Shown: in pieces, positions 4,115-26,501 of the stretch
Layout: each line of letters begins with the position of its first letter
Numbering within the stretch: the stretch's first letter is position 1
NCBI GenBank assembly: GCA_013151865.1
Contig: JAADHN010000174.1
Span: forward strand, 1-33,468
Source of the DNA: Kiritimatiellota bacterium
Lineage (GTDB): Bacteria; Verrucomicrobiota; Lentisphaeria; Oligosphaerales; JAADHN01
Direction: 5' to 3'
Length of the DNA stretch: 33,468 nt
Program-made: the position numbers and the translations under genes
The notes under the pieces: generated by a model
Told to the model about the DNA's origin: nothing
The model's database searches: none
The model's input: the letters and a program-made list of their open reading frames with translations, nothing else

Positions 4115-4878
4115 AACCACCTCCGTTTTCTGAATAGTGCGACCAGGTCGCGAACGGCGTTCAGCGCGGTTGAGTCCTCCGGCAATTCCATGAGCGGGCG
4201 GCCTTGCACGTCGAATGCTCCCAGGGCGGGGTCCGTCGGAATGCCGGCCACGATCTCGATGCCGGTGGCGGCAAATGTCTCGGCGACCGCGGGTTCGGGC
4301 GGGCGATCACATGGGTTGAGGACGAGAAAAGTCCTGCCCACTTCCAGTTTCAACCGCTTGATCATGTCAATCACTCGCCCGGCGGTGCGCGCCCCGATGA
4401 TGTTGGGCGGGCAGGCAACCAGCATGATATCCACCATGCCGTTGGTACGCCGACTCAGGTGTTCGAGTCCCGCTTCGTTATCGATCACCATGGCGCGATA
4501 ATGCCCGCTGATCTCCGCGATGCAATCTCGGAGCACATTGTTGATGTAGCAGTAACACCCGGGGCCCTCCTGTTGCCCCATGACCAACATATCGAGACCG
4601 GGCGCTTCGGTCAGGTCTTCGTGAATGAGTTGCTCGATCCACTCCTGCTTGGAAACTCCGACAGGCACCGAGGACGGGTCTTCGCGCAACTGCTCGCGCA
4701 TTTCACCGATTGTCCGGCTGACGGGGAGCCCCAGGTAATCCGGCAGGCAACTATTGGGATCGGCGTCAACGGCCAGAAGTGGTTTGAGCCCGTTCTCGAT
4801 AAGCACACGGCAGAGGAGCGCGGAAATGGTTGTCTTCCCGGACCCGCCTTTGCCGGCAATGGCGATGCGAACAGTCAT
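4111..4878 (-). CDS. cooC: CooC-type nickel-insertion ATPase, copy 1
   Basis: This 255-residue protein is a MinD/ParA-type P-loop ATPase of the CooC/AcsF group, which matures the nickel centres of CO dehydrogenase and acetyl-CoA synthase. The deviant Walker A motif GKGGSGKTT is at residues 9-17, with AVDADPNS near 36-43. A Cys-X-Cys pair (C108, C110 in GPGCYCYINN) corresponds to the dimer-interface metal site known in CooC. The start has GGAG 7 bases upstream and overlaps the acsV stop as ATGA. Its place between acsV and acsD suggests it serves AcsB (an AcsF role), while the other copy sits next to cooS. The division of labour is inferred. Confidence 0.9.
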   Translation of the reverse strand: MTVRIAIAGKGGSGKTTISALLCRVLIENGLKPLLAVDADPNSCLPDYLGLPVSRTIGEMREQLREDPSSVPVGVSKQEWIEQLIHEDLTEAPGLDMLVMGQQEGPGCYCYINNVLRDCIAEISGHYRAMVIDNEAGLEHLSRRTNGMVDIMLVACPPNIIGARTAGRVIDMIKRLKLEVGRTFLVLNPCDRPPEPAVAETFAATGIEIVAGIPTDPALGAFDVQGRPLMELPEDSTALNAVRDLVALFRKRRWL

Positions 4879-6833
4879 TCTGCGGCTCCTGAACCGTTCT
4901 GCAGGCGCGTTGCTTTCGCGACTGACGGGAAACGTTCTATGTCGGTATGCGGGAGGAAGAGGCAGGACGTGTATTCGTTCATGTACTTGTGCGACGTGCT
5001 GAGTTCCACGTAGGTCATTGCCGAAGCGATGTTGTCTTGGATATACTTCAGGGCATGTTCGGAAAGCATGACCATCTTGGCGCCGAGAACGGAGCCGTTT
5101 CCGACCACTTGGAAGATGGACCGTTCAAGGTCTGGGAGGAGGCCGATCCGAATGGCCTGCTCGACACCCAGGTGATTTCCGAATCCGCCGGCGATGTAGA
5201 CATTGCGCACATCGTGGAAGGTCAGGCCGACATGGTCCAGCAGACACTCTGCGGCCATGTAGACAGAGCCTTTGCTGCGGATGAGATTGCTGATATCGGC
5301 CTCGGTCAGGGCGATGTCCCGTCCCAGGGCCGTCTGTTCGCCAGGGAACAGAATGAACGCCTTTTCCCCGGCGTCGTTTTTCTGGAGACGCGGGCCGCAG
5401 ACGTCCGCCACAAAGTGCCCGGCGCGATCGATGCACCCTGCGGAAAGCAATCCGGCCACGGCGTCGATCAGCCCCGATCCGCAAAGCCCCAGGGGACGCT
5501 CGCCGCCCACGACACCGCACCCGACGACCCTCCCTCCTTCGCCGAGGGTAAGCCACTCCACTGCCCCGGATGTGGCCCGCATGCCGCAGCCAATCCCCCC
5601 ACCTTCGAAAGACGGGCCGGCCGAAGCCGAGCAGCACATCAGCCACTCCGAGTTGCCCAGAACCAGTTCGCCATTGGTACCCAGATCGATCAGCAGCGAG
5701 AGTTCCTCGCTGCGCGTGATTTCGGTGACGAGGACGTCGGCCAGCACGTCTCCTCCCACGTACGACGCCACACAAGGCAGGGCGGTCAACAAACCGCGGG
5801 CGCCGATCGTGATGCCCACTTCCGCCGCGCGGATGACGGGGGGGTTGAGAGTGCACGGCACATAGGGATCGCATCGAATATGTGCCGGATCCAGCCCGAG
5901 GAGCAGGTGCACCATGGTCGTATTCCCGGCGCAAACCACGCAGGTCACGTCGGCGAGACGCACGCCGGCGTCGAACACGAGCGCCGAGATAAGGCCGTTA
6001 ATGTCACTGACCACGGTATCCTGCAGCACCGAGAGCCCATCGGCAGTCCCCGCGTACATGATCCGGGCGATGACGTCCTCCCCAAAGGCAGACTGAGAAT
6101 TATAGCGGGCATTGGCGGCAATGGTCTCCCCGTTGGTCAGGTCCACCAAATGGGCCACGATGGTCGTAGTGCCGATATCCAAAGCCACCCCGTAATTGGT
6201 TGCCGCGGTATTACCGGGCTCCACGTCTACCACTTCCACTGTACCGCCGCGACTGCCGAGGAGTGCGGTTGCCTTCCAGTTGCAGCGGCGCAATGTGTTC
6301 GACAGTCGTCTCAGGACGGAAAGGCCCATCTGCATAATGGGCAGGTCATAGTGCTTGCGGACCGAGCGGTAGAGCCGCTCCTGGTCGGCCAGACTGTCTT
6401 CCACGGTGGGTTGGGGCAGTTCCAGGAACACCTTGCGGACCAGCGGCGACGATGGATAGGTCGCTCCCTCGCCGATTTTGGCACACACTTTTCCGAAGCG
6501 GACGGCATCCTCGTGAGCCAAGTGCGGAATGCCGCCTGTTCTGGACTCCGGGGGCACCTCCACCACGACGTCGCCGGCCACATATGTTTGGCAGGCCAAC
6601 GCGGCTCCCCGCTGGATGTCGTGCCGATTCAGGAACATCGTCGGCTTGGCGGTCACTTTCCCGGCTCGAATCACCACACGACATTTGCCGCACACACCGT
6701 CTCCACCGCAAACATTGTTGATGGTGATCCCGGCGGCCTTTGCGGCATCGAGGATCGACCGTCCCGCGGCGGCGCGCACGGTACAGTTGTCGGGCTGAAA
6801 AGTGACGGCGTAGGTTTTCACGTGTCCTGCCAT
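4875..6833 (-). CDS. acsV: Corrinoid protein reductive activator (2Fe-2S ferredoxin + ASKHA ATPase)
   Basis: The 652-residue product fits the family that reactivates oxidised Co(II) corrinoid protein at the expense of ATP (RACo, also called AcsV or DUF4445). An N-terminal [2Fe-2S] ferredoxin domain carries C42, C48, C51 and C81. After a linker, the ASKHA-type ATPase domain starts around VALDIGTTTIVAHLVDL and continues with SLLIDLGTNGELVLG and AGGFGNHLG near the end. The ATG at 6833 overlaps the acsC stop by 16 bases. A GTG at 6821 forms a GTGA overlap with that stop and is a real alternative, giving a protein shorter by 4 residues. It lies directly after acsC, the target of its activity. Confidence 0.93.
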   Translation of the reverse strand: MAGHVKTYAVTFQPDNCTVRAAAGRSILDAAKAAGITINNVCGGDGVCGKCRVVIRAGKVTAKPTMFLNRHDIQRGAALACQTYVAGDVVVEVPPESRTGGIPHLAHEDAVRFGKVCAKIGEGATYPSSPLVRKVFLELPQPTVEDSLADQERLYRSVRKHYDLPIMQMGLSVLRRLSNTLRRCNWKATALLGSRGGTVEVVDVEPGNTAATNYGVALDIGTTTIVAHLVDLTNGETIAANARYNSQSAFGEDVIARIMYAGTADGLSVLQDTVVSDINGLISALVFDAGVRLADVTCVVCAGNTTMVHLLLGLDPAHIRCDPYVPCTLNPPVIRAAEVGITIGARGLLTALPCVASYVGGDVLADVLVTEITRSEELSLLIDLGTNGELVLGNSEWLMCCSASAGPSFEGGGIGCGMRATSGAVEWLTLGEGGRVVGCGVVGGERPLGLCGSGLIDAVAGLLSAGCIDRAGHFVADVCGPRLQKNDAGEKAFILFPGEQTALGRDIALTEADISNLIRSKGSVYMAAECLLDHVGLTFHDVRNVYIAGGFGNHLGVEQAIRIGLLPDLERSIFQVVGNGSVLGAKMVMLSEHALKYIQDNIASAMTYVELSTSHKYMNEYTSCLFLPHTDIERFPSVAKATRLQNGSGAAE

Positions 6834-8158
6834 ACGGTCTTCAGGTACTTGGACAGCGCACTCGCTTCGCGGGGGCCGACCAACACTTCCCACCCCGAGT
6901 CTTCGTTTAGACTGCCGCTCATGGCGGCGACGTATCCGGGGATAATCACTTTGCGGTGCGACACCGCCTCCGAGACTTCCGCGGACATGAGGAACGCGGC
7001 AACTTTCTCGGAGGATAGTTTGTCCGCCGCGAAAGCCGTCAGCACCGAGGTGCCTTCAGTGTCGATGACGCCGATGTAGGTTGGGACGCGACTGGCTTCC
7101 ACTTCGGACTGAACCGTGTAGTACGTCAGCGAGAAATTGGTCGTCACCAGCAGAGGAGATTGGGGTGTAACTGCGCCGACGCTGTAAAGCTTCGCTTCCA
7201 CCTGCACAGGCTTGCGCGGATCGGTGTAGAGGTTCTGACTGAGCGTGAGGATGGGTGCGATCTGCTCGGGGCCGCTGAGCGGGGTTAACACGATGCCGGC
7301 ATACTTGGCAACGTAGGCGCAACAGTCGGAGACGTTTTGGTACGGATCGGGTTCACGCACGACGGCCATGCAGGGGAAGCCGACCCCGTCTGCCTTGCGC
7401 TTGAGGGCCAAGCGGCGGGCGGCCGTCATCGCCTCCACTCCGGCCGCAATACTTCCGGCGCCGAGATCCAGCACGATGTCCTCGATGCCGGCTTTGCGGA
7501 CCTGTACAGCCAGAGCGGCCACACTGTCCAGATCAGGCCCCGTGACTGCCAGAGGGCATTTGGCGCTCTTGGCCACTCGCACGTATTCTTGCCAATCGGC
7601 GTCCGTCGCGGCATGGATCAGAGGCCGGGCCGCGGCACACTCGGCCAGAGCGGCTTCGGCGTGAGCAGCCTGCCGAGCGATGAGAACCATGGGAAGTTCC
7701 AGGGAGGCGACAGCCTTCACGGTGGAGGCGAAGGCAGCGGCATCCCCGCTGACATTTTCCACGCCGACCACAGTGACGCCGATGCGCATACCGACCCGGA
7801 CGAACGAAAGCGCCTTGACGGCAGCGATGCGTGCCCGCAGGTCGTCCTCGTCGAGATTGTCGGGCAAGACAACGCCGATGCCCGGCGGGTGGTAGAACGA
7901 CTCCTCATGGCGGAACATGACGGTTTCGCCGCCGATCTCGATTTTTGCGGCGCCGGCGCCGATGGCGACGAGCCGAATAGGGGGAGCGGCCGCGCCGCTC
8001 AGTTGGGCTTTTGCGTCTTCCGACACGTCGGGACACTCATCCAGAGTGGCCTTCTGTGTTGTCAGTTTCATGGCAAATGCCAGACAGGTTGGACAGCCGC
8101 ACTTCTTGCAGTTGGTTTTGGGAAGCAGCTTGAAAATGTCGAGCGCTTTGAGTGCCAT
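6818..8158 (-). CDS. acsC: Corrinoid/iron-sulfur protein large subunit (CODH/ACS gamma)
   Basis: This 446-residue protein is the large subunit of the corrinoid iron-sulfur protein, which binds the cobamide and the [4Fe-4S] cluster that keeps cobalt reduced. The N-terminal cluster motif is complete: C17, C20, C25 and C42 in NCKKCGCPTC plus DEC. The middle is a TIM barrel, and the C-terminal corrinoid-binding region includes LLVTTNFSLTYYTVQSEVE and IPGYVAAMSGSL. The start has AAGGGA 8 bases upstream. It follows acsB by 33 bases and forms a complex with AcsD, encoded two genes further on. The length is typical (about 446). Confidence 0.96.
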   Translation of the reverse strand: MALKALDIFKLLPKTNCKKCGCPTCLAFAMKLTTQKATLDECPDVSEDAKAQLSGAAAPPIRLVAIGAGAAKIEIGGETVMFRHEESFYHPPGIGVVLPDNLDEDDLRARIAAVKALSFVRVGMRIGVTVVGVENVSGDAAAFASTVKAVASLELPMVLIARQAAHAEAALAECAAARPLIHAATDADWQEYVRVAKSAKCPLAVTGPDLDSVAALAVQVRKAGIEDIVLDLGAGSIAAGVEAMTAARRLALKRKADGVGFPCMAVVREPDPYQNVSDCCAYVAKYAGIVLTPLSGPEQIAPILTLSQNLYTDPRKPVQVEAKLYSVGAVTPQSPLLVTTNFSLTYYTVQSEVEASRVPTYIGVIDTEGTSVLTAFAADKLSSEKVAAFLMSAEVSEAVSHRKVIIPGYVAAMSGSLNEDSGWEVLVGPREASALSKYLKTVWQDT

Positions 8159-21165: not shown

Positions 21166-21693
21166 ATGAGCAACAGTCCCGCACCCAAACGTCGCGAGAG
21201 GATTCCTCGCGCGCAAGTGGTCCGTCACATCCGCAACCTCTTCGGAGTGACGCAGGTCCGTCTGGCCGCCGCGATGGGGACGTCTGTTAAAACGATTCAG
21301 AGCTACGAGCAAGGCTGGCGCAGGGTGCCGACGCGTGCCCTGATACAGCTTTTGGTCCTGCTGGCGATTCACCGCCGTCGTGAGATCGACACGGTCCCAT
21401 GCTGGGAGATCCGCAACTGTTCACCCGAAGACCGCGAGGATTGCGCCAACTTTACTGTCGGCGACGGCCAGCTCTGTTGGTTTGTGTCGGCAGGGAAGTG
21501 CCGGTGCGGGTTGGCTCAGGGGGATTCGGACGTGAACGACGATCTGCTTCCCTGCATGGCTTGCGAGGTCATAAGACGTCTGTTGCGTTCGGACAATACC
21601 GGCAACGGCGCGACCGGGCCGAAGCGGCCTGGCAACAAGAACACAAGGGAAACGGGCACCGGCCGCGGCGTTGACGATTCCGCCGTCAAATGA
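21166..21693 (+). CDS. HTH (Xre-type) regulator with Cys-rich two-CW-like domain
   Basis: This 175-residue protein has an N-terminal helix-turn-helix of the Xre/Cro type (about residues 22-68, with TQVRLAAAMGTSVKTIQSYE). A Cys-rich segment follows, beginning C79-W80 and continuing C85, C93, C104-W105, C112, C114, C130 and C133. The repeated Cys-Trp pairs resemble the 'two-CW' domain seen in signalling proteins of anaerobes. The segment probably binds a metal or an iron-sulfur cluster. The C-terminal 40 residues look disordered. GGAGAGG lies just before the ATG. It is the first gene of a three-gene set facing away from the Wood-Ljungdahl operon. Redox- or metal-responsive control of that operon is an inference from this arrangement. 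Confidence 0.8.
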   Translation: MSNSPAPKRRERIPRAQVVRHIRNLFGVTQVRLAAAMGTSVKTIQSYEQGWRRVPTRALIQLLVLLAIHRRREIDTVPCWEIRNCSPEDREDCANFTVGDGQLCWFVSAGKCRCGLAQGDSDVNDDLLPCMACEVIRRLLRSDNTGNGATGPKRPGNKNTRETGTGRGVDDSAVK

Positions 21694-23244: not shown

Positions 23245-24240
23245 TCAGGTCGTCTTCCGAGTTTCGGATCCGGCTTCAACGCTACCGAGAAGCAGTTGCG
23301 CCTGGTCCACAATGTCCCCGGCCGAGGAGGCCCGTGGGATATAAGTTCCCGAATACTTCATGCCCTGCAGAAACGGCCCGTACACACGGAAGCCGGAGAA
23401 CTTGCGCAGAATCTTGATGGCGACGTTCCCGGCGTCAAGGGACGGAAAGACGAGCACATTCGCATTGCCGGCAACCGCACTGGCCGGCGCCTTGATGCCG
23501 GCGACGGCCGGAATCAAGGCTGTGTCGATCTGCATTTCGCCGTCCAGGATGAGATCGGGCGCCCGGGCGTGCGTGAGGGCCACGGCGTCCCGGACTTTCT
23601 GGGCAGCGGGGTGACTGGAACTACCGGAAGTGGAGAACGAGAGAAAGGCCAGTCGAGGACTCTCGCCGGTGATCCGCTCATAGCTGGCGGCCGATTGAAT
23701 GGCGATGTCCGCAAGCTGATCCACGGTGGGGTCCGGCACCACACTGACGTCTGCCACGCCCACCATCTGGCAACGCACAAAATCGCACCCGTCGAACCTG
23801 ACCAGCGACATGCCCGACACCGTGCTGCAATCCGCGGCCACCCCGAGGAGTTTGAGGTAGACACGCATGACGTGACTGGGAGTGGTCGCCGCGCCCGCGA
23901 TCACCACGTCGGCCGAACCCGACGCCACCAGCCAGGCCCCGACCACCACGGGGTCGGTCGCATCCAGACTGCTGCCGGCGCCGGTTTTTTCCAGATGGGA
24001 CGCGATTGTCTGTTGAATCTGGACGTCTTCGTAGTCGAACACATCCATTCCTTCGAGAGGCAACCGCAGGCCGACGGCCAGCGTGTCCAGTTCATCGCGG
24101 TTCCCCAGCAGCACCACATGCCCAAGCTTGTACTGAGTCAACGTATGAGCCGCCCGCAGGACGCGCCAATCAAAAGATTCGCACAATACCACGCGAGGAA
24201 GCGGTCCGCTCCGTCTGGAAAAACTCGGAATGACAGGCAT
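23245..24240 (-). CDS. pta: Phosphate acetyltransferase (catalytic domain only)
   Basis: This 331-residue protein is a single-domain Pta, which interconverts acetyl-CoA and acetyl phosphate. Family stretches are VVIAGAATTPSHVMRVYLKL, LADIAIQSAASYE, LAFLSFSTSGSS, DLILDGEMQIDTALIP, KAPASAVAGNANVLVFPSLD and YGPFLQGM. The loop after LQG differs from the norm: the expected KPVNDLSRG reads KYSGTYIPRAS. The Arg is kept, but the Ser before it is Pro. The N-terminal PEG/DP segment is also altered (CESFDW). It follows the acetyl-CoA synthetase gene by 12 bases and is probably in its operon. A related acyltransferase with a different acyl group is an alternative. No acetate kinase gene is present in the window. 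Confidence 0.8.
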   Translation of the reverse strand: MPVIPSFSRRSGPLPRVVLCESFDWRVLRAAHTLTQYKLGHVVLLGNRDELDTLAVGLRLPLEGMDVFDYEDVQIQQTIASHLEKTGAGSSLDATDPVVVGAWLVASGSADVVIAGAATTPSHVMRVYLKLLGVAADCSTVSGMSLVRFDGCDFVRCQMVGVADVSVVPDPTVDQLADIAIQSAASYERITGESPRLAFLSFSTSGSSSHPAAQKVRDAVALTHARAPDLILDGEMQIDTALIPAVAGIKAPASAVAGNANVLVFPSLDAGNVAIKILRKFSGFRVYGPFLQGMKYSGTYIPRASSAGDIVDQAQLLLGSVEAGSETRKTT

Positions 24241-24252
24241 GTGGCGCCCCCT

Positions 24253-26415
24253 TTACGATCCACTGTCCCGGTATTGCTTTTTCAGTTTCTCGATCACTGC
24301 CGGTTCTGCCAGCGCCGTCATGTCCCCCAGCACTTTGCCCGCCGCGATGTCCCGGAGCAACCGCCGCATGATCTTGCCGCTGCGTGTCTTCGGCAGGTCT
24401 GCCGTAAAGAGGATGTTCTCGGGGCGTGCGATTGCACCGATCTTCTTCACCACGTGATCCTTGAGTTGCTGGACCAAATCGACACCCATACGGCTCGATT
24501 CCTTGATCGTGACAAACGCCGTGATCGCTTCCCCCTTGATCTCGTGAGGTGTGCCGACCACGGCCGCCTCCGCCACGGAAGGATGATCCACCAATGCAGA
24601 CTCCACTTCCATGGTGCCGATCCTGTGCCCGGCAACATTAAGGACGTCATCCACTCGGCCCACCACGGTAAAGTATCCCATCTCGTCGCGTTTGGCGCCG
24701 TCACCGGTGAAATAAATGCCGGGCCACTTCGACCAGTATGTCTTCACGAAACGCTCGTGGTCACCGTAGATCCCCCGAATCATACCGGGCCATGGCTCGG
24801 TGACGGCCAGATAACCGGCGCCCACCGGGATTTCATTGCCGGCCTCGTCCAGAATGGCAGCAGCAATGCCCGGCACCGCGCGACCCGCCGATCCCGGTTT
24901 CATGGTGCCGATACCCGGGAGGTTCGTGATCATAATATGGCCCGTTTCCGTCTGCCAGTACGTGTCCACCACCGGGCATCGGCCGTTGCCGATGTTCTCA
25001 AAGTACCACATCCACGCTTCAGGATTGATCGGCTCCCCCACGGTCCCCAGCAGCCTTAAACTGGAGAGATCGTGCCGCTCCACCGGCTCGGGACCCCATT
25101 TCATGAAAGTCCGGATTGCCGTCGGCGCCGTGTAAAAGACGGTGACCCCGTATTCCTCGACGATGGCCCAAAAGCGATCCCGATCCGGCCAATCGGGCGC
25201 CCCTTCGTACATCACAATGGTCGCGCCGTTGCACAACGGCCCGTACACGATGTAGCTGTGTCCCGTCACCCAACCGATGTCCGCCGTACACCAGAAAACA
25301 TCGTCTTGCTTTAAGTCGAAGATCATCTTGCTGGTGGCGTAGCAGCCCACCATGTAGCCGCCCGTGGTATGGACGATGCCTTTCGGTTTGCCCGTCGTAC
25401 CGGAGGTGTACAGGATGTAGCTCATGTGCTCGGAATCGAGAGGCTCGGCAGCGCAATCCGCCGAGGCCGACTGCATCAGTTCGTCCCACCAGAGGTCCCG
25501 TTTGGCAATAAGGCGTATCGGAAAATTCCCGTGGCGTACGATGATGACGTGCTCGACTCCCGGCGACTGCCGCAGCGCATAGTCCGCATCGTGCTTCAAC
25601 GGGATGAGCCCGCCGCGGCGAAACCCCCCGTCCGCGGTAATCAGCAATTTGGCCTGGGCGTCGTTGATTCGATCCGCCAGCGACTCGGCGGAGAACCCGG
25701 CGAAAACAACCGAATGAACAGCCCCGATGCGAACGCAGGCGAGCATGGCGATGGCAAGCTCCGGAATCATCGGCATGTAAAGCGCCACCCGGTCCCCTTT
25801 CTCAACCCCAAGGCCCCGCAGAACATTGGCAAATTTGCACACCTGGCGGTGCAAATCCCAGTAAGTCAAGGTGCGCTTCTCCCCCTTTTCGCCTTCCCAG
25901 ATAATGGCGGCCTTGTTCCGCAGACCCTTGTCCAGGTTCAGATCAAGGCAATTGTAGCTGATGTTCGTCGTCCCGCCCACGAACCACTTCGCGTACGGCG
26001 GGTCCCACTGAAGGGGCCGATCCCACTTCTTGAACCAATGCAATTCAGCGGCAAAGCGCTCCCAGAAACGCGGCCCCTCGGCCCGCGCCTTCTCGTAGAT
26101 ATCGGGGTCCGAAACGTTGGCCTGCGCCGTAAATGCCGGCGGCGGTTCAAACGTTCGCTCTTCTTTCAATAAGTCGCTGATCACTGCCGGTCTGCTGGCG
26201 GCAGGAGTCGTTTCCGGCGGCCCGGGCGGACGGCTCGACGGAGTCTTGCCGTCCGGGTTCCGCAGCCACTTCTCCAAATCCTCCCGGGAAAAACGCCAGC
26301 GACGCCCCAGTTTTTTCGCAGGAATGCGCCCCGACTGCAACAGCTTGTACAGGGTGCTCTTGGAAAGTTTGAGATGGGCCGCCGCCTCGTCGAGTGTAAG
26401 CACGTCTTCTGCCAT
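24253..26415 (-). CDS. acs: Acetyl-CoA synthetase (AMP-forming) with N-terminal HTH domain
   Basis: This 720-residue fusion begins with an excisionase/MerR-type helix-turn-helix domain (residues 5-52: [20 protein letters not shown], then [21 protein letters not shown]). A Pro-rich linker follows (about 55-78), and then a full-length acetate-CoA ligase of about 640 residues. The ligase has [11 protein letters not shown] (336-346), the [10 protein letters not shown] acetate/ATP motif, [13 protein letters not shown], the [13 protein letters not shown] hinge, and the C-terminal [11 protein letters not shown] with Lys681, the usual acetylation site. Reading is continuous, and a start after the HTH would drop the only ATG close to the promoter (26473-26501). 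The enzyme activates acetate. The HTH domain suggests it may also bind DNA, possibly its own promoter. pta follows in the same operon. Confidence 0.95.
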
Positions 26416-26451
26416 GGTTTTGCTCCCGAATCAAACCACTCTCTGCTTGCC

Positions 26452-26480
26452 GCTATTAGCCAGTATTGTCCGATAATAGC
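26452..26480. promoter_or_regulatory. Inverted repeat overlapping the acs -10 box (candidate operator)
   Basis: GCTATTA (26452-26458) and TAATAGC (26474-26480) form a perfect 7-bp inverted repeat. Their centres are 22 bp apart, about two helical turns. One arm covers the -10 hexamer of the acs promoter and the other lies just downstream of the transcription start. This is the geometry of a repressor site. The HTH domain of the encoded enzyme is the obvious candidate ligand, by inference. Confidence 0.5.
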
Positions 26481-26501
26481 CCGCAACACAAAGATTGTCA
26501 A
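26473..26501 (-). promoter_or_regulatory. Sigma-70 promoter of the acs-pta operon
   Basis: On the minus strand a perfect TTGACA (26496-26501) is followed after 17 bases by TATTAT (26473-26478, 5 of 6). The ATG of the fusion gene is about 55 bases after the -10 box. Confidence 0.8.

Follow-up and report, generated by a model that had tools for sequence, protein, structure and literature searches.

BirA is an adenylate-forming biotin ligase that carries an N-terminal winged HTH and represses the genes of its own pathway; it forms a dimer on its inverted-repeat operator, and the fold of its ligase is not related to that of acetyl-CoA synthetase (Acs). The Streptomyces protein BldC assembles head to tail on 9-bp direct repeats, via an AT-rich stretch and a C-G pair (PMC5859096). 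The sites of Apl are direct repeats one helical turn apart, promoters are repressed by Apl, and other recombination-directionality factors (RDFs) also use direct repeats at this spacing (PMC7498355). The locus described here combines an Acs carrying an HTH_17 domain (HTH-Acs) with a tandem direct-repeat array in the promoter of its gene. Searches of the open-access literature turned up neither an acetyl-CoA synthetase described with a DNA-binding domain of the BldC/Xis type nor an operator to go with one.

The HTH-Acs protein and its gene neighbourhood

The window (the whole 33,468-bp stretch of DNA that was analysed) contains the HTH-acs gene and, downstream of it, a second gene:

24253-26415, minus strand: HTH_17-acetyl-CoA synthetase fusion, 720 aa (identified by Pfam, NCBIfam, alignment and fold)
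23245-24240, minus strand: phosphate acetyltransferase-family gene (PTA_PTB), directly downstream of HTH-acs

HTH-Acs was sought at the level of the order, the class and the phylum, and in the class of two distant relatives, with a maximum of 400 genomes per search. Three further HTH-Acs genes were found, one in the same order (G022) and two in a single genus of another class (G307 and G293). Where they can be aligned, these three orthologs show 76-85% identity to the protein encoded in the window; the HTH and Acs parts are conserved among them, while the linker is variable.

The first-pass annotation had stated that the gene behind this promoter encodes an HTH, and Pfam agrees: HTH_17 (E 2.3e-18) is followed by ACAS_N, AMP-binding and AMP-binding_C. 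The HTH occupies residues 5-53, the variable linker approximately residues 54-104 and the Acs part residues 105-716. Against the NCBIfam acetate--CoA ligase model, whose cut-off is 657, residues 81-716 reach 997.5 bits, and alignment indicates that the catalytic motifs SGTTGKPKG and PKTRSGK are retained. With the ACAS_N, AMP-binding and C-terminal domains and both motifs, the protein can be classified as an AMP-forming acetyl-CoA synthetase. It probably also performs ordinary acetate activation, because three of the four genomes yielded no other close Acs homologue.

The HTH is predicted to be a small winged HTH (two helices, a beta wing and a helix) with a pLDDT of approximately 80 in the domain, in a model built from a four-sequence alignment with a mean pLDDT of 69. 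The top Foldseek matches of this prediction, at a modest E-value of approximately 0.004, were BldC-DNA (6ama, with smeA DNA), RdfS (8dgl) and Pukovnik Xis (4j2n). These matches to a predicted structure support, but do not prove, the assignment to the BldC/Xis type. The domain falls in the HTH_17 group of winged HTHs, and the putative operator in all four orthologs consists of direct repeats approximately one helical turn apart. BldC in the strict sense is a small stand-alone protein with a 9-bp AATTxxxxC repeat, whereas HTH-Acs is an Acs fusion with a 10-bp AWTAnYGG repeat.

HTH-acs sits in a Wood-Ljungdahl cluster that includes genes for formate-THF ligase, a methylene-THF reductase-like protein, CO dehydrogenase, the acetyl-CoA synthase alpha/beta, gamma and delta subunits and a methyltransferase. 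This large cluster, which also holds a NuoE/F-like flavoprotein and a formate dehydrogenase-like operon, spans positions 1-32220 of the window; the genome is 6.2 Mb in size. The acs-pta gene order is retained in all four genomes. In a sample of 388 genomes of the phylum, acsB (acetyl-CoA synthase) was found in 25, scattered and at 50-74% identity, a pattern that suggests transfer or repeated loss. All HTH-Acs occurrences in this sample fall in acsB-bearing genomes (3/25); G022 carries both, and is not among the acsB matches listed for the sample. The Acs homologues of most other genomes of the phylum have no HTH_17 domain. The contig matches inspected for HTH-Acs in other phyla proved to be either Acs without the HTH or an HTH on its own.

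A small gene for an XRE-type HTH protein (21166-21693, plus strand) and the formate-THF ligase gene (20185-18413, minus strand) point away from each other. Homologues of this XRE gene adjoin fhs in G022 and G293 and cooC in G376, so its product may regulate the Wood-Ljungdahl operon.

Promoter and direct-repeat array

The following features were identified upstream of the HTH-acs start codon:

26422-26426, minus strand: ribosome-binding site GGGAG, kept in G022
26450-26459, minus strand: direct-repeat unit 3, CTAATAGCGG, the best-conserved of the units
26460-26469, minus strand: direct-repeat unit 2, ACAATACTGG; the transcription start is expected about here, as inferred from the -10
26470-26479, minus strand: direct-repeat unit 1, CTATTATCGG, part of the cross-genome motif and covering the -10
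26473-26478, minus strand: -10 hexamer TATTAT, within unit 1
26496-26501, minus strand: -35 hexamer TTGACA; the same hexamer and 17-bp spacer occur in G022
26452-26480, no strand: inverted repeat GCTATTA-15-TAATAGC, whose arms are parts of units 1 and 3

The first-pass annotation had described a strong promoter with a perfect TTGACA and a 17-bp spacer, an arm of the inverted repeat overlapping its -10. This description is accurate: the sigma-70-like promoter TTGACA-17-TATTAT reads on the minus strand (26501-26473) with 11/12 matches to consensus, and GCTATTA (26452-26458) and TAATAGC (26474-26480) are both present, with centres 22 bp apart. Taken alone, the inverted repeat is unremarkable and not beyond chance. 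The window holds 148 perfect 7-bp inverted repeats with spacers of 3-40, where shuffles give 106-151, and a 100-bp promoter, once shuffled, contains a perfect 7-bp inverted repeat in 7.8% of cases. Conservation of the arms in relatives, set beforehand as a point on which that reading hinged, was not observed: the arms match at 3/7 positions in G022, and the 80 bp preceding the G022, G307 and G293 genes contain no perfect inverted repeat (6-8-bp arms, spacer 3-30).

What is beyond chance in this promoter is a 10-bp tandem direct repeat over the same bases. Three head-to-tail 10-bp units, CTATTATCGG, ACAATACTGG and CTAATAGCGG, follow the approximate consensus of the four HTH-acs promoters, nTAATAGCGG, with one unit on the -10 and two downstream. 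Units 1 and 3 read as an inverted repeat because TATTA in unit 1 is the reverse complement of TAATA in unit 3 and each of these units is bordered by GC; judged by its bases, the mirror-image repeat is a by-product of the direct repeats, which accounts for the earlier observation. Two other arrangements were set aside. A compact 15-bp palindrome over the -10 (TATTGTCCGATAATA) is not conserved in G022, where approximately 4/7 pairs are kept, and the genome contains no family of such sites. A repeat of 20-bp pitch, GCTAWTnnnGG, first seen in the window and G022, corresponds to every second unit of the 10-bp array.

Conservation and specificity of the array

The comparison set consisted of four HTH-acs promoters from two taxonomic classes, two of them from one genus. 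All four share an array with 10-bp pitch located within 65 bp of the start codon:

G022: CTAATGTTGG ACACCAGTGG CTAATACTGG
G307: GTATTAGCGG ATAATAGCGG CGATTAATGA
G293: TGATTAGCGG ATAATAGCGG CGATTAACGA

The middle unit of G022 (ACACCAGTGG) is degenerate, and the third unit is weak in both G307 and G293. From TTGACA to ATG, the window and G022 align ungapped with 56/92 identical positions; upstream of about -120 they show no resemblance. Candidate -10 hexamers (GATAAT) also lie inside the arrays of G307 and G293, but their -35 hexamers are weak and these promoter assignments are less certain. In G293 (L106), a further GGCGGATAATCGC element is located approximately 80-90 bp upstream of the HTH-acs start, above the array, and is possibly another partial unit.

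When the best three-unit score at pitch 10 was calculated without a model, the window reached 19 pairwise matches of 30, G022 17, G307 21 and G293 21; the numbers of shuffles (of 1000) reaching these scores were 2, 13, 0 and 0, respectively. Pitch 10 ranked top among pitches 7-29 when the four promoters were summed, again model-free. With a pair-of-units model made from the window and G022, the HTH-acs promoter ranks first in both the G307 locus (score 19.7, reached by 0/200 shuffles) and the G293 locus (15.6, 5/200). In the reverse test, the score of the G307/G293 model on the 708-bp intergenic stretch of the window was matched by 2/1000 shuffles. This narrow model is less discriminating elsewhere: the array is not top-ranked in the G022 locus, and over the whole 33-kb window one coding site (6099-6118, plus strand, ATTATAGCGGGCATTGGCGG) outranks the array. 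That site, a two-unit match with a score of 16.9-18.1 inside the coding region of gene 4875-6893, is probably due to chance.

No array was found in the other intergenic stretches of the window or at 17 acs genes without HTH, for which the best score was 7.3 compared to 20.1-26.8 for HTH-acs promoters. In the four genomes (approximately 23 Mb), exact matches to AWTANYGG-N2-AWTANYGG occur at HTH-acs promoters only; this pattern was composed with the HTH-acs sites already in view, and the degenerate G022 array is not an exact match. The genome-wide scans are pattern matching only. A wider regulon was considered and rejected, as matches with one mismatch in G000 are mostly in coding sequence and none was seen near Wood-Ljungdahl genes beyond the acs promoter. 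The conserved DNA element, with its array structure, gene association, position on the -10 and near-uniqueness in each genome, is well supported.

Proposed mechanism and alternatives

We propose that this region is the promoter-operator of an acs-pta operon, with an operator of tandem 10-bp direct repeats running from the -10 across the predicted transcription start. The N-terminal HTH_17 domains of HTH-Acs would occupy the array head to tail, one domain per helical turn, in the manner of BldC, Xis and Apl. The bound array would cover the -10 and repress the operon, giving negative autoregulation by the enzyme itself. To this reading as a whole, in which HTH-Acs represses its own acs-pta operon by head-to-tail assembly over -10/+1, we assign a probability of roughly 0.66. 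Binding of HTH-Acs to the array is likely, and we infer that its effect is repression. The autoregulatory loop suggested by the first-pass annotation is likely too, as finding the element only at HTH-acs promoters fits autoregulation. Its operator over the -10 stood in part: a conserved cis-element is located there, but with head-to-tail direct repeats instead of inverted symmetry.

The original picture of a symmetric, dimeric repressor on GCTATTA-15-TAATAGC draws on a perfect 7-bp inverted repeat, one arm of which overlaps the -10, but the near-chance frequency of such repeats, the poor match of the arms in G022 and the lack of a perfect copy in the three orthologs make it very improbable, and direct repeats are what HTH_17, BldC and Xis proteins bind. 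An RNA element or a translation-initiation constraint in a conserved leader, rather than a DNA operator, is likewise highly unlikely. Such a leader would suit the position of the window and G022 arrays, mostly within the 5' leader, and the conservation that extends to the ribosome-binding site. Against it, the leader has no Rfam hit at E-values up to 1, a constant pitch of 10 bp is characteristic of the DNA helix, and in G307 and G293 the array lies at a different distance from the start codon, with one unit upstream of the predicted transcript.

The array might instead be a genuine operator for another regulator, such as an HTH_17 protein that is not part of a fusion or the product of the XRE-type gene at 21166-21693. 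The genome does encode further HTH_17 proteins, and the XRE gene is likewise kept in related clusters. We consider this unlikely nevertheless: the array is restricted to HTH-acs promoters, G376 has the XRE gene with a plain acs and no array, and the usual targets of XRE proteins are palindromes. It is also rather improbable that HTH-Acs, bound to the array, activates in a MerR-like fashion or serves as an architectural protein. Promoters activated by MerR have a long spacer of approximately 19-20 bp, and here the array lies over the -10 and predicted start site, not over the spacer, which has the optimal length of 17 bp; for these reasons occlusion, and thus repression, is likelier than MerR-type activation. 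Activation would be consistent with the relationship of HTH_17 to MerR (fold search, PMC5859096) and with the bending of DNA in the BldC binding mode.

For autorepression by HTH-Acs, a role for the enzyme's substrates can be imagined. By analogy with BirA, our guess is that substrate state (acetate, ATP or bound acetyl-AMP) alters DNA binding. The fuller version, an acetate-sensing autorepressor that polymerises via its HTH domains on phased repeats, with a catalytic state such as acetyl-AMP setting the stability of the filament and so linking acetate activation to acs-pta transcription, is tentative and less probable than autorepression as such. Should this hold, the Wood-Ljungdahl pathway would have at its acetate/acetyl-CoA node an enzyme that senses its own state and controls its own gene via a direct-repeat filament. 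The locus would also offer a compact test case, with one site and one target, for transcription repression by this HTH class.

Comparison with known systems

HTH-Acs shares with ordinary AMP-forming Acs the match to the acetate--CoA ligase model and the motifs SGTTGKPKG and PKTRSGK, and differs in its extra HTH_17 domain and linker. With BirA it shares the architecture of an adenylate-forming ligase with an N-terminal winged HTH and, presumably in the case of HTH-Acs, repression of genes of its own pathway; the inverted-repeat operator and unrelated ligase fold of BirA set the two apart, and an acetyl-AMP corepressor for HTH-Acs is a guess. The excisionase/RDF proteins (186 Apl, lambda Xis, RdfS and Pukovnik Xis; PMC7498355, PMC11963761) have in common with HTH-Acs the HTH group, the fold match and direct repeats one helical turn apart. 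Apl itself needs three adjacent operators and represses promoters. Unlike these proteins, HTH-Acs is accompanied by neither an attachment site nor a recombinase, and its HTH is a domain of a metabolic enzyme. Streptomyces BldC (PMC5859096) shares the HTH_17/MerR-like winged HTH, as the top fold match (6ama), and AT-rich direct repeats with G/C contacts, in variable number and at promoters. BldC stands alone at 68 residues, uses 9-bp repeats and has many targets, whereas HTH-Acs has its HTH fused to an enzyme, a 10-bp pitch and one target per genome.
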